From Pseudoxanthomonas sp. X-1 (GTDB taxonomy: Bacteria > Pseudomonadota > Gammaproteobacteria > Xanthomonadales > Xanthomonadaceae): a DNA stretch of 64,000 nucleotides. Each line of letters starts with the position of its first letter. Position 1 is the first letter of the stretch. Positions 57,064-61,118 of this stretch are shown here, piece by piece. The DNA lies in NCBI RefSeq assembly GCF_020042665.1, contig NZ_CP083376.1, positions 842,001-906,000 on the forward strand, in the 5' to 3' direction. The position numbers were made by a program, and so were the translations under genes. The notes under the pieces are model-generated. The model saw only the letters and a list, made by a program, of their open reading frames with translations, was not told the origin of the DNA and made no database searches.

Positions 57064-58437
57064 TCACCCCGCGTAGCGGCTGCGCAGCATCTCGAACGCC
57101 GCGCGCAGCGCCATCGCCTCGCCGCCGGCCGGGCGGCCCGGGCGATCGCTGTCGTTCCAGGCGTACACATCCAGGTGCGCCCACGGCGTGCCGGCCGGGA
57201 CGAAGCGCTCCAGGTACAGCGCGGCGGTGACCGCGCCGGCCATGCGCGAGCCGGCGTTGGCCAGGTCGGCCACGTGGCTGGTCAGGTAGCGCAGGTACGG
57301 CCGCCACAGCGGCAGCCGCCACAGCGGATCGCGCGTGCGCTCGCCGGCGGCCAGCCAGGCGTTGGCCAGCGTGTCGTCGTTGGAGAACAGCACCGGCAGC
57401 TCCGGCCCCAGCGCGATGCGCGCCGCGCCGGTGAGCGTGGCGAAGTCCAGCAGCACCTCGGGCTTGTCCTCGCCGGCATGGGCCAGCGCATCGCCCAGGA
57501 TCACCCGGCCTTCGGCGTCGGTATTGTCGATCTCCACACTGACGCCAGTGCGCGTGGCGATGATCTCGCCAGGACGGAAGGCGTTGGGGCCGACCGCGTT
57601 CTCCACCGCCGGCACCAGCAGGGTCAGGCGCACCGGCAGGCGCTGGCGCATCACCAGCTCGGCCAGTGCGATCGCATGCGCCGCGCCGCCCATGTCCTTC
57701 TTCATGTTGCGCATGCCGTCGGCCGGCTTGAGGTCCAGCCCGCCGGTGTCGAAGCACACGCCCTTGCCGACCAGCGACACCTTCGGCGCATCCTCGGCGC
57801 CCCAGCGCAGCGCGATCAGGCGCGGGGCGCGGTGCGAGGCGCGGCCCACCGCGTGGATCGCGGGGAAGTTGCGTTCCAGCAGCGCATCGCCGGTGACCGC
57901 CTCGACCTGCGCGCCGTGCTCGGCGCCGATCCTGCGAACCACGGCTTCCAGCTCGTCCGGACCCATGTCCTCGGTCGGCGTGTTGACCAGATCGCGCACA
58001 CGCAGGCATGCGGCCAGCAGGTCGTCGGTGCGCGCATCGGCCGCCGCGCGCAGCAGCCGCGCCGGCGCGCGCGTGGCGGTCTTGTAGCGGTCGAAACGGT
58101 AGGCGCCCAGGCCCCAACCCAGCTCCAGCGCCGCGCGTGCGTCGGCGGAGAGTTCGCTCACCACCTCCCAGGCGCTGCCGGACGGCAGGCCCATCGGCGC
58201 ATGGCCGTAGGACAGTGGATCGCCCGCATCGGCGATGCCCAGCACCGCGCCGGCCACGCCGTCATCGCCCGGCAGCAGCGCCAGTGTGCCCGGCGCGGCA
58301 CCGAAGCCCTGCGCCTGCAACCAAGCGGCCACCGCCGGCGCCTGCTGCGCGCACCAGGCGCCGAACTGCTCGCGCTGCAGCACGTGCAGCGGGCGCACCT
58401 GGTCGGTGCGGGCATCGAGAAAGGCGGGCGCGGTCAT
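57064..58437 (-). CDS. M17 leucyl aminopeptidase family protein
   Basis: 457 aa. The catalytic domain shows the metal-binding motifs in order: VGKGVCFDTGGLDLKP (about 250), KKDMGGAA and the family signature NTDAEGRVILGDAL (about 316). The N-terminal domain is shorter and divergent relative to PepA, so PepB-like or generic M17 naming is safer. It cleaves N-terminal residues from peptides in the cytoplasm. ATG 58437 overlaps the stop of the upstream HAD gene (ATGA). Confidence 0.93.
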   Translation of the reverse strand: MTAPAFLDARTDQVRPLHVLQREQFGAWCAQQAPAVAAWLQAQGFGAAPGTLALLPGDDGVAGAVLGIADAGDPLSYGHAPMGLPSGSAWEVVSELSADARAALELGWGLGAYRFDRYKTATRAPARLLRAAADARTDDLLAACLRVRDLVNTPTEDMGPDELEAVVRRIGAEHGAQVEAVTGDALLERNFPAIHAVGRASHRAPRLIALRWGAEDAPKVSLVGKGVCFDTGGLDLKPADGMRNMKKDMGGAAHAIALAELVMRQRLPVRLTLLVPAVENAVGPNAFRPGEIIATRTGVSVEIDNTDAEGRVILGDALAHAGEDKPEVLLDFATLTGAARIALGPELPVLFSNDDTLANAWLAAGERTRDPLWRLPLWRPYLRYLTSHVADLANAGSRMAGAVTAALYLERFVPAGTPWAHLDVYAWNDSDRPGRPAGGEAMALRAAFEMLRSRYAG

Positions 58438-59153
58438 GCGGCGGCGGAGTCCTTGTCGTCCAGGTGCGCGTCGAGCCAGTCGGCCAGCGCGGTGAGCGTG
58501 GAAAATTCCAGGTCGGGCCGCGGCTCGTCCAGCGGCCAGTCGGCGCCCTCGCGGTTGAGCCAGGCCGCGCGCAGCCCCGCGCGCATCGCGCCGGCCGCGT
58601 CCATCACCGCGTGGTCGCCCACGTGCAGCACCTGTTCGGGCGGCAGGTCCAGGCGCACGCACGCGGCATGGAAGATGCTGGCTTCCGGCTTGGCCGCGCC
58701 GTGCTCGCGCGCGCCCAGCTGGAACACGAAATGCTCGGCCAGCCCGCAGCGCGCCAGGTCGGCATTGCCGTTGGTCAGCGCCGCCACCGGCACGCGCGCG
58801 GCCATGCGCTTCAGGGCGTCGATGGCGTCGGGATAGCATTCGACCTTGTTGCGTTCGGCGTAGAAGATCTCGAACGCGGGCTCAAGCAGCGCCATGTCGG
58901 CCTGGCTATCGCGCAGCGCCTGTTCCAGGGTCAGCTTGCGCAGCGTGGACAGGTCGTGGATCAGGTGCGGGTTGTCGGCGAAGACCTGGGTACGCAGCTC
59001 GCGCATCGCCTCGATGGGGAACTGGCGCGCGGTGGCGGGGCTGTGGACTACCAGCCAGTCATGCATCCTGCGTTCGATGCGCTCACCGATCGGCGCGAAC
59101 GGCCACAGGGTGTCGTCCAAGTCGAGGGTGACGGCGCGGATGTCGAAGGTCAT
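58434..59153 (-). CDS. HAD-superfamily hydrolase, YigB-like
   Basis: 239 aa. HAD motif I DLDDTLWP (about 11-18), motif II LTNGNADL, motif III AAKPEASIF and motif IV HVGDHAVMDAAGA are all present, with a helical cap between I and II. E. coli YigB dephosphorylates FMN among others, but the substrate here is unproven. Translationally coupled to the aminopeptidase. Confidence 0.92.
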   Translation of the reverse strand: MTFDIRAVTLDLDDTLWPFAPIGERIERRMHDWLVVHSPATARQFPIEAMRELRTQVFADNPHLIHDLSTLRKLTLEQALRDSQADMALLEPAFEIFYAERNKVECYPDAIDALKRMAARVPVAALTNGNADLARCGLAEHFVFQLGAREHGAAKPEASIFHAACVRLDLPPEQVLHVGDHAVMDAAGAMRAGLRAAWLNREGADWPLDEPRPDLEFSTLTALADWLDAHLDDKDSAAA

Positions 59154-59204
59154 GGGGACATTTTAGCCTGTGGGCTGTGGCGCCTGCCTTGAGGGGCGCA
59201 GCCG

Positions 59205-59300
<96 letters not shown>

Positions 59301-59310
<10 letters not shown>

Positions 59311-59541
59311 CTGTCTGAGCCGTAAAGCACGCCGAGCACCGCAGCAAAGTAGGGCCGAAGAGGGGCCCCTGTTTGAGCGAAGCGAGTTTGGGCCCCGTGC
59401 CCTGCTTTGCGAGGAGCGCAGGGGACCGACGCGCAGCGTCGGCGTGCGTTTTACCCCCTCTTCGGGGCCCGGCGAGAAGCGGTTTTGCTTCCTTTTGACA
59501 AGACAAAAGGAAGTCGCGCCTGCAAGGCGCGAAAGCTTTGC
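59301..59541 (+). ncRNA. Structured intergenic element, left copy (candidate structured RNA)
   Basis: About 241 bp. Predicted helices: H1 59344-59355 with 59399-59410 (12 bp); H2 59362-59368 with 59390-59396 (7 bp, loop containing GAGCGAAGCGAG); H3 59426-59432 with 59436-59442 (7 bp); H4 59488-59497 with 59504-59513 (10 bp, loop ACAAGA). Each helix is also formed in the right copy despite base differences, through compensatory changes. Its ends are fully conserved between copies. Whether it is transcribed is not known. Confidence 0.55.
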
Positions 59542-59656
59542 ACTGGGGCGCGCTGTAGGCGCGTTGCCTTTGCTCTGCTAGTGCTGGTGTTGGTCTGTAG
59601 GGAAACTTGAATCTAATTTGCAAGCATTACTTGAGCGCCAGTCCGCACTTCTCAAA

Positions 59657-59881
59657 GCAAAGCTTTCGCACGGCTTCGCCGCGCGAGCTACTTTTGTCTT
59701 GTCAAAAGTAGCCAAAACCGCTTCTCGCCGGGACGCGAGCCGCCGCTACGCGGCGGTCCCCTGCGCTTCTCGGAAGTCAGGGCACGTCGCCCAAACTCGC
59801 TTCGCTCAAACAGGGGCGACTCTTCGGCCCTGACTTCCTGCGATGCTCGGCTCGCTTTACGGCTCAGACAGGTAGAGCAAC
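59657..59881 (-). ncRNA. Structured intergenic element, right copy (candidate structured RNA)
   Basis: About 225 bp, reverse orientation. Read on the minus strand it matches the left copy, with identical outer 28 bp and inner 13 bp. H1 is GGAAGTCAGGGC / GCCCTGACTTCC, H2 GTCGCCC / GGGCGAC, H3 CCGCCGC / GCGGCGG, and H4 GCTACTTTTG / CAAAAGTAGC. All are fully paired, with different bases from the left copy at nine pair positions. Confidence 0.55.
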
Positions 59882-60015
59882 AGCCAAGGCACAGCAACAG
59901 CCAAAGCACAGCAACAGCCAAAGCACGGCAAAAGCAGCAGCAAGAACCACGGCAGGTGCAACAGCGACAGCAACAACAGCAGGCAACGGCAACCGCAACG
60001 GCAAGCAACAGCAAC
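59876..60015. repeat. CAACAGCCAAAGCACAG tandem repeat and AACGGC run
   Basis: Three 17-bp units (AGCAACAGCCAAAGCAC) followed by CAACAGCGACAGCAACAAC and GGCAACGGCAACC runs, down to the end of the AI-2E transporter gene. Confidence 0.8.
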
Positions 60016-60017
60016 GG

Positions 60018-61118
60018 CTATTCCATCAGCCGCGCCCACCCCTCCATCCCCTGCACCCGCGCGAGCACCAGCTTGATGCACACCAGCATCGGCACCGCCA
60101 GCAGCAGCCCCACGATCCCCCACAGCGAGCCGAACACCATCAGCGACAGGATCAGGATCAGCGGCGAGAGCCGCATCTGCCGGCCCAGCACGATCGGCGT
60201 GATCACCTGGCCTTCCAGCGTGTGCAGGCCCAGGTAGATCGCCGCCGGCAGCAGCGAGGGCCAGGCCTCGTCGAAGGTGGTCAGGCCCACCACCAGCATC
60301 ATCACCATGCCGATCAGCGGGCCGACGTAGGGCGCGAAGTTGAGGATCGCCACCATCGTGCCCCACAGCAGCGCGTCGGCCAGCGGAAACTTCAGCAGCA
60401 TCAGCGCGCCGGCGAACAGCACGCCCACCACGAAATTGATCAGGCTGATGGTCAGCACATAGCGCGAGACCGCGCGTTCGATCGATTGCAGGATGCCCAC
60501 GGTCAGCTTCTGCTGCTGGCGCCTGGGCAGCAGCGCGACGGCGTGGCGCTGCAGCGGCTGGCCGTAGACCATGAAGAAGAACGTCAGCAGCACCACCGCC
60601 AGCACCGAGGCGATCATGCGCGGGGTGGCGGTCAGCGTGCGATACGGATCGTCCACCGTGCGCATCACCTGCGGCCGGCGGCCGGTGTCGCCGGCGGCGG
60701 CGCGGGCGAAGTTCTCGGCCGCCTGGTTGGCGTCGTAGACCGGCTTGGTCAGCGCATGCAGCTTGGGCGCGAGCTGGCGCAGTTCGCGCGGGGCCGCCTT
60801 GGCCCAGGCCGCGGCCGGCGGCACCATCTGGTAGGCCAGCGCGCCGGCGGCGGCCAGGCCGAGCAGCAGCACCAGCAGCGCGCCCAGGAAGCGCGGCACA
60901 TAGATCCGCTGCAGGCCGCGCAGCAGCGGGTTGCCGACCAGCGCCAGGAACACGGCCAGCAGCACCGGCAGGATCACCGCCTGGGCCAGCCACAGCGTGT
61001 AGCCGCAGGCCAGGAAGGCCAGGATCACCAGCGACAGCGGCCCGCGCGGGCGCGGCGCCACCGGCTTGACGGGCAGGGGCGTCTGGGCCGGCGTCAGATC
61101 GGCTTCGGTCGTGGACAT
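60018..61118 (-). CDS. AI-2E family transporter
   Basis: 366 aa with about eight membrane helices; the C-terminal block holds NFAPYVGPLIGMV (about 270-282) and the family segment LHTLEGQVITPIVLGRQMRLSP. Members are permeases of the PerM/TqsA type; substrates include autoinducer-2 in E. coli but also Na+/H+ exchange elsewhere, so no substrate is claimed. Downstream lies the repeat region, with no clear terminator. Confidence 0.92.
   Translation of the reverse strand: MSTTEADLTPAQTPLPVKPVAPRPRGPLSLVILAFLACGYTLWLAQAVILPVLLAVFLALVGNPLLRGLQRIYVPRFLGALLVLLLGLAAAGALAYQMVPPAAAWAKAAPRELRQLAPKLHALTKPVYDANQAAENFARAAAGDTGRRPQVMRTVDDPYRTLTATPRMIASVLAVVLLTFFFMVYGQPLQRHAVALLPRRQQQKLTVGILQSIERAVSRYVLTISLINFVVGVLFAGALMLLKFPLADALLWGTMVAILNFAPYVGPLIGMVMMLVVGLTTFDEAWPSLLPAAIYLGLHTLEGQVITPIVLGRQMRLSPLILILSLMVFGSLWGIVGLLLAVPMLVCIKLVLARVQGMEGWARLME

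Follow-up and report, generated by a model that had tools for sequence, protein, structure and literature searches.

The stretch of DNA analyzed here (the window, 64,000 nucleotides from Pseudoxanthomonas sp. X-1) carries, between two putative genes, a pair of similar elements that face each other, and raises the question of what these elements are and whether selection acts on a folded form of them, as RNA or as DNA. The initial annotation had described an inverted pair of about 230-bp elements at 59301..59881 with identical ends and four helices that keep pairing although the bases differ, had matched them to no named family, and had pointed to selection on folded RNA or single-stranded DNA. 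We found the pair as described (Table 1): copies of 241 and 225 nt share 28 bases at their outer and 13 at their inner ends. The four helices also held up. The first, our H1a, forms 12 pairs in both copies, with three double changes (C-G/G-C, A-T/G-C, G-C/T-A) plus a T-G/C-G change, and in the other three, which we take to be our H1b, H2 and H3, we found two, one and three double changes, respectively. Beyond these helices lie a further hairpin (H4), a closing stem (P1), mismatches in the basal part of H1, and arrays on both outer sides. Between 59150 and 60014 of the window, several reading frames run open through the element and its arrays (134, 157 and 108 codons), and spurious protein annotation may therefore arise here.

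Table 1. Features of the inverted pair and its flanks, in window coordinates
Feature	Position	Strand	Remark
Copy A, 241 nt	59301-59541	+	ends same as copy B: first 28, last 13 nt
Copy B, 225 nt	59657-59881	-	faces copy A
Spacer, 115 nt, parting A from B	59542-59656	.	resembles spacers elsewhere in own and a related genome
Left hexamer microsatellite, GCCGTT/GCCGTC then GTTGCT-like units	59204-59300	+	touches outer (5') end of copy A
Right hexamer-like array, AGCAACAGCCAAAGCAC... and GGCAAC units	59882-60016	-	touches outer end of copy B
Copy A P1 stem	59327-59332 with 59442-59447	+	closes H1-H2 domain
Copy A H1 basal helix, GAGCACCGC with GAGGAGCGC	59334-59342 with 59411-59419	+	conserved mismatches; one covarying Y-R pair (C-G in A)
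Copy A H1a stem	59344-59355 with 59399-59410	+	
Copy A H1b stem	59362-59368 with 59390-59396	+	
Copy A H1 tip GCGAAGC, GNA triloop mini-hairpin within GAGCGAAGCGAG	59377-59383	+	
Copy A H2 hairpin, GCA triloop	59426-59432 with 59436-59442	+	
Copy A H3 hairpin, CTTCCTTTTG/CAAAAGGAAG	59488-59513	+	other taxa: T-rich motif or hairpin downstream
Copy A H4 hairpin, TCGCGCCT/AGGCGCGA, GCA triloop	59514-59532	+	
Copy B P1	59855-59850/59740-59735	-	
Copy B basal helix	59848-59840/59771-59763	-	Y-R pair is T-A
Copy B H1a	59838-59827/59783-59772	-	
Copy B H1b	59820-59814/59792-59786	-	
Copy B apical GCGAAGC	59805-59799	-	
Copy B H2	59756-59750/59746-59740	-	
Copy B H3	59712-59703/59696-59687	-	
Copy B H4	59685-59678/59674-59667	-	
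Putative HAD-type hydrolase gene, flanking the A/B pair	58434-59153	-	named from protein reading
Putative AI-2E-type transporter gene, other flank of the pair	60018-61118	-	named from protein reading

The pair belongs to a larger family. The same genome holds 12 copies, arranged as four facing pairs and four singles, and a DNA search of 61 genomes returned copies in 8, all of them Pseudoxanthomonas (8 of its 37 genomes). With an exact core pattern we obtained at least 116 matching stretches in genome contigs; those listed come from Luteimonas, Stenotrophomonas, Lysobacter, Xanthomonas and Pseudoxanthomonas; further ones lie in Silvimonas, Methylophaga and Desulfobacterota such as Desulfosarcina. 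A viral match (L215) and a Leucobacter match (L141) were rejected as members, having the appearance of chance matches. A covariance model (R1) detected the core in at least 48 of the 198 genomes scanned from the bacterial family, spread over 20 of 54 genera, and in at least 6 of 299 genomes of a phylum sample; these counts are lower bounds, since the scans used strict filters and scored at most 21 (family) or 13 (phylum) candidates per genome. Copy A had no match among plasmids and phages. Rfam release 15, scanned with the window stretch and 18 loci, gave nothing at curated score, the best weak match (E 0.025) lying in the right array, and the literature, consulted mostly outside subscription papers, held no description that we recognized as this repeat. 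Thus the checks that the initial annotation had proposed, a covariance model and an Rfam scan, extended the family to further genomes and likewise gave no match to a named family: this multi-hairpin repeat family, found in several bacterial groups, is apparently without a name in print.

Other repeats were seen along the way. One is a sister-like family, an inverted pair with TTTCTTTGC...GCAAAGAAA hairpins that resemble H3 and a different 5' module (G000:C1:1793075-1793688, L312); it also occupies the HAD/AI-2E gap at L266, L269 and L271-L275, that is, the same intergenic places as the element in related genomes. A short repeat, CGTCATTCCCGCGAA.GCGGGAATCCAG, has 34 further matches in the same genome as the window (e.g., at 3786084, 1924061 and 745005), and starts with CGTC, as do published CGTC-tagged REPs. 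In some copies (L040, L043, L047, L048, L049, L087) the 3' side carries, between H1b and H1a, an 18-nt insert like TCCCTAAAAGGGGATAAA, which could itself form a small hairpin.

To assess covariation across the family we used two alignments. A1 comprises 60 diverse cores from 70 chosen of 226 found, ten being left out as incomplete (six) or odd in shape (L112, L131, L176, L181). A2 comprises 50 full-length Pseudoxanthomonas copies obtained by profile search, from 68 without long inserts among 95. Because the pattern that retrieved every A1 core fixed GCCGAGCAYCG and TGAGCGNAGCGAG, the invariance of those letters in A1 (GNA in 60/60) is by construction. Cells in which both sides of a pair had changed numbered 322 in A1 and 358 in A2, compared to 123 and 112 in shuffles. 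Under a tree-based null that preserves the tree and, for each column, its count of changes (our own script, not R-scape; 60 replicates; E < 0.05), eight column pairs were significant in A2 (four in H1a, two in H2, one each in H3 and H4) and six in A1 (five in H1a, one in the basal helix), corresponding to 8 of 30 and 6 of 19 pairs in which both sides vary; no significant column pair fell outside the proposed helices in either alignment. H1b and P1 had no significant pair in A1 or A2, and P1 was 79.7% Watson-Crick in A2, with some copies mismatched. An outermost AAAG/CTTT stem closing the whole element was rejected (37 A.C compared to 1 G.T cells). The initial annotation had compared just the two copies, and had named an absence of covariation beyond phylogeny as one outcome that would speak against its proposal. 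Instead, the many-copy covariation exceeded both the shuffles and, by our script, the tree-based null, and it was strand-specific in the better alignment, which supports selection on folded RNA or single-stranded DNA.

The fold has several conserved features. In the basal helix of H1, two mismatches whose partner letters were free in A1 were A.A in 48/60 and G.A in 52/60 cores, and a third was either A.G (40 cores) or A.A (19 cores). Between the mismatches, the Y-R pair was C-G or T-A in 56/60. In one family of the same class (f16) the two basal strands are swapped, and the R/Y pair is G-C in five and A-T in one of six distinct motif-fitting sequences. At the H1 tip, GCGNAGC, only N varied across the 50 profile-found copies of A2; N was A in 110, C in 107, T in 33 and G in one of 251 motif hits, in which the other letters were required. 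The H2 loop in A2 was GNA on a C-G pair in 40/50 copies, and 33/50 copies had, by our count, a GNA triloop closed by a Watson-Crick pair in H4. A T-rich motif, loosely defined, was present downstream of the core in 89/89 Pseudoxanthomonas, 22/25 Desulfobacterota, 7/7 Silvimonas and 3/7 Methylophaga copies. By inspection, no T run of the kind that marks an intrinsic terminator directly followed H3 or H4 in A2.

Both copies folded better as RNA than dinucleotide shuffles (z = -3.57 and -5.09), and the complementary strand of copy B did so as DNA (z = -4.31); thus, folding alone cannot choose the strand. The tolerated mismatches can. In A2, G.T was far more frequent than A.C, both in cells (80 G.T, 12 A.C and 71 other mismatches) and as events (54, 11 and 42), and the strand as written is therefore what folds. 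In A1 the two were similar in cells (41 G.T, 46 A.C; 35 and 16 as events); in our judgment this missing signal reflects misaligned stems, and we relied on A2 instead.

The same excess of G.T over A.C would be expected if the element were a structured RNA, transcribed alone or within an mRNA and selected in its folded form, and the strand-specific covariation and the strong RNA folding of both copies fit this explanation as well. We nevertheless regard it as unlikely. Besides the Rfam result, the upstream flanks are microsatellites or are unrelated between taxa, so that no common promoter is evident by eye, and among single copies between codirectional genes, 20 lay on the gene strand and 20 on the opposite strand. 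The apical loops are mostly GNA triloops, and, according to the accessible text of one study, a GNA loop closed by two or more G-C pairs gives DNA mini-hairpins of extraordinary stability (PMC4686876). Moreover, changes in the element ended in G.T in 54 events compared to 165 ending in Watson-Crick pairs, whereas RNase P RNA of the same genus (28 of 30 loci used), a far less diverged set, gave 18 and 15; fewer G.T endings in the element favor DNA, a contrast that is suggestive only. Taken together, these indirect points (the triloops, the lack of a transcription-linked orientation and the changes ending in Watson-Crick pairs) lean toward single-stranded DNA over RNA, and we infer that the selected molecule is probably DNA. 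Among the RNase P RNA genes, that of one Pseudoxanthomonas (G035 contig 9, L345) carries an insert of about 360 nt with tandem repeats of about 67 nt (by eye), and two more (L346, L347) have shorter inserts near the same place; all three still score as RNase P.

We then considered what surrounds the copies. By inspection, most Pseudoxanthomonas copies have hexamer arrays such as GTTGCN on their outer side, in one orientation. The eight element-bearing Pseudoxanthomonas genomes have 7 to 60 array matches, compared to at most 14 in the others, of which 10/29 have any; in the genome of the window, 7/8 array clusters adjoin an element. Arrays also occur, with up to 27 matches, in 5/24 genomes of other genera in which the DNA search found no element, which speaks against a strict link between array and element. 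The upstream period-6 signal is strong in Lysobacteraceae and Silvimonas and absent or weak in Methylophaga and Desulfobacterota; thus, the arrays are not part of the core. One long GTTGCY hexamer array (G000:C1:3642469-3642665, L276) has no element match beside it. With crude gene calling, tail-to-tail gaps were enriched among element-bearing gaps (59/131, compared to 100/555) and head-to-head gaps, which hold promoters, were depleted (9/131, compared to 110/555). A recurrent neighbor gene was sought by ORF clustering over 117 loci and rejected: the example of the one cluster of 63 loci is an ORF through the repeats, and other clusters cover at most five loci each and are, by eye, repeat-run ORFs or common host genes.

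The two arms of a pair tend to differ in type. Using the Y base of the basal helix we typed 51 of 61 pairs, leaving 10 untyped, after skipping L141 and 11 loci of genomes already counted; 38 were unlike, nine A+A and four B+B (P = 0.0004 relative to random pairing, with kinship left in). Facing Pseudoxanthomonas pairs have spacers of just 35-127 nt, on which ground a gene between the arms was rejected, and these spacers are alike between loci. Their A-to-B orientation is kept in eight of nine pairs of G000 and G004, the sole exception being a chimeric pair (L050), and over all genomes 49 alignable comparisons agreed and 19 disagreed. In Stenotrophomonas and Methylophaga the pairs are divergent, with tip-to-tip distances of roughly 190-230 nt. 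The order in which A and B follow each other between the flanking genes differs, by reading, between G000 and G004 at all four matchable loci; at the HAD locus, A adjoins the HAD gene in G000 and G009, B does so in G004, G010 and G011, and G007 has two A arms by the Y base. There are signs that the arms have recombined with each other. At two loci (L039, L045), ORFs between successive copies resemble host genes by eye.

Comparisons between genomes bear on movement. A single A copy at G004 C4:78368 corresponds to an orthologous gap of 70 bp without an array in G000, and a B copy at G004 C17:126548 stands opposite a different inverted pair in G000. At least six element loci are common to the two genomes, judging from the flanks by reading, and recent movement has therefore been slow. 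No target duplication or precise junction was readable in the locus comparisons. We infer that the unit is or was mobile. A RAYT or other Y1 transposase as resident mobilizer was not supported in the sampled genomes: at 1e-6, no Y1-like transposase match occurred at 205 element loci (1.28 Mb, some overlapping; control 29/30), no significant element match occurred within about 1.5 kb on each side of 58 Y1 loci (the best model E being 0.098), and 14 Y1 loci in four element-bearing genomes of one genus (g22, possibly Stenotrophomonas) had no element. PF01797 was absent from 6 of 23 element-bearing genomes searched, including that of the window, and present in 17.

The reading we favor, to which we give an even chance, is that of a non-autonomous extragenic element resembling REPs and REPINs and acting as folded single-stranded DNA. 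Copy A, the spacer and the inverted copy B would form one element of about 580 bp, with A and B as its arms. The selected form would be single-stranded, the written strand of each arm folding into a chain of hairpins that would begin with the long H1, with its basal mismatches and its GCGNAGC mini-hairpin tip, and continue through H2, H3 and H4. Where this folded DNA becomes exposed, for example at replication forks, an enzyme provided in trans would recognize it and would spread the unit, now or formerly. More tentatively, the repeats could constitute an undescribed superfamily of folded single-stranded DNA in several proteobacterial groups and Desulfobacterota, with an architecture of its own (mismatched basal helix, GCGNAGC tips, T-rich H3), unlike arms that serve as left and right ends, and an enzyme other than an IS200-like Y1 transposase; this is possible, and we hold it with less than even confidence.

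Two explanations dispense with mobility or with selection on the fold. The element could be an extragenic site used by the host in the manner of functional BIMEs, with a protein-binding or topological role for the double-stranded or extruded form. The loci shared between G000 and G004 and the depletion of head-to-head gaps would suit such a site, whereas its patchy spread in genus, family and phylum sample (the latter two under strict filters) would not, and the strand-specific excess of G.T is at odds with a symmetric double-stranded function; we consider a host site improbable. Alternatively, quasipalindrome correction and gene conversion could maintain complementarity without any selection on the fold, and stalled replication could generate the flanking microsatellites. 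Copies do swap blocks, as in the chimeric L050 pair, and slippage-type arrays do lie beside them. Such repair should also pair the mismatches, yet A.A and G.A persist across phyla around a covarying Y-R pair; moreover, the basal strands are swapped in one family with pairing retained, and the H1 loop letters in A2 are fixed except for N. We therefore view purely mutational upkeep as very unlikely.

If an element acting as folded single-stranded DNA is indeed what these copies represent, extragenic repeats recognized in that form are not bound to RAYT transposases. The family would be large and widespread, with its mismatches, GNA tips and swapped basal strands laid out as recognition features for testing. 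In genomes of this bacterial family it would also help to account for odd ORFs and hexamer microsatellites, and the covariance model would serve their annotation.

The element shares features with several known systems and differs from each. Like enterobacterial REPs and BIMEs, it consists of extragenic hairpins in opposite orientations and of different types, as with y and z in Escherichia coli. The E. coli enzyme is described, in the part of the report available, as requiring conserved mismatches in the REP stem (PMC8266576), and the element too has conserved stem mismatches; four REP sequences from three enterobacterial species, as given in the accessible text of PMC2817692, have a tip, AAGCGNAGCGC, that resembles GAGCGNAGCGAG of the element. 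GTAG REPs are 20-40 nt long, in contrast to the 225-241 nt and four hairpins found here with a core that reaches Desulfobacterota, and by inspection no hairpin foot in the aligned copies bears a GTAG (or GTGG) head. CGTC REPs, also 20-40 bp palindromes and thus unlike our copies, are said in the available portion of PMC3733652 to be without a dedicated transposase; a preference for unlike dimers is given there for many families. The outer ends of the element carry no CGTC; in A2, some 35 of the 50 rows have CGT, usually as CGTC, after the 3' strand of P1. The same portion mentions, among the TIR repeats of Stenotrophomonas maltophilia K279a, a family that is self-complementary and closely spaced; the element differs from TIRtrons in that no Y1 gene flanked by it was found at the loci searched. 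Streptomyces telomeres and parvovirus ends, as far as the accessible text of PMC4513846 goes, are folded single-stranded DNA with GCA loops, sheared G-A closure and a hairpin-preferring protein; these are terminal and replicative, whereas the element is interspersed between genes, and the likeness is one of fold only.

The closest anatomical parallels are BIMEs, with which the element shares differing repeat types in opposite orientation outside genes, and REPINs, with which it shares an inverted doublet and common spacer as the unit, singles occurring as well. REPINs are presented in the accessible part of PMC3116915 as inverted doublets with a spacer and compensatory changes, singlets being read as remnants. 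The arms of the element are several times longer, its spacer in Pseudoxanthomonas is 35-127 nt, and it has outer hexamer arrays and no RAYT that we found; likewise, no rayt gene between two inverted copies was found at the 205 element loci or the 58 Y1 loci. Since the anatomy is that of REPINs and BIMEs but hallmarks of a RAYT system, namely the GTAG head and a rayt gene between inverted copies, did not appear when looked for, we do not class the element as a REP doublet and instead describe it as working like one.
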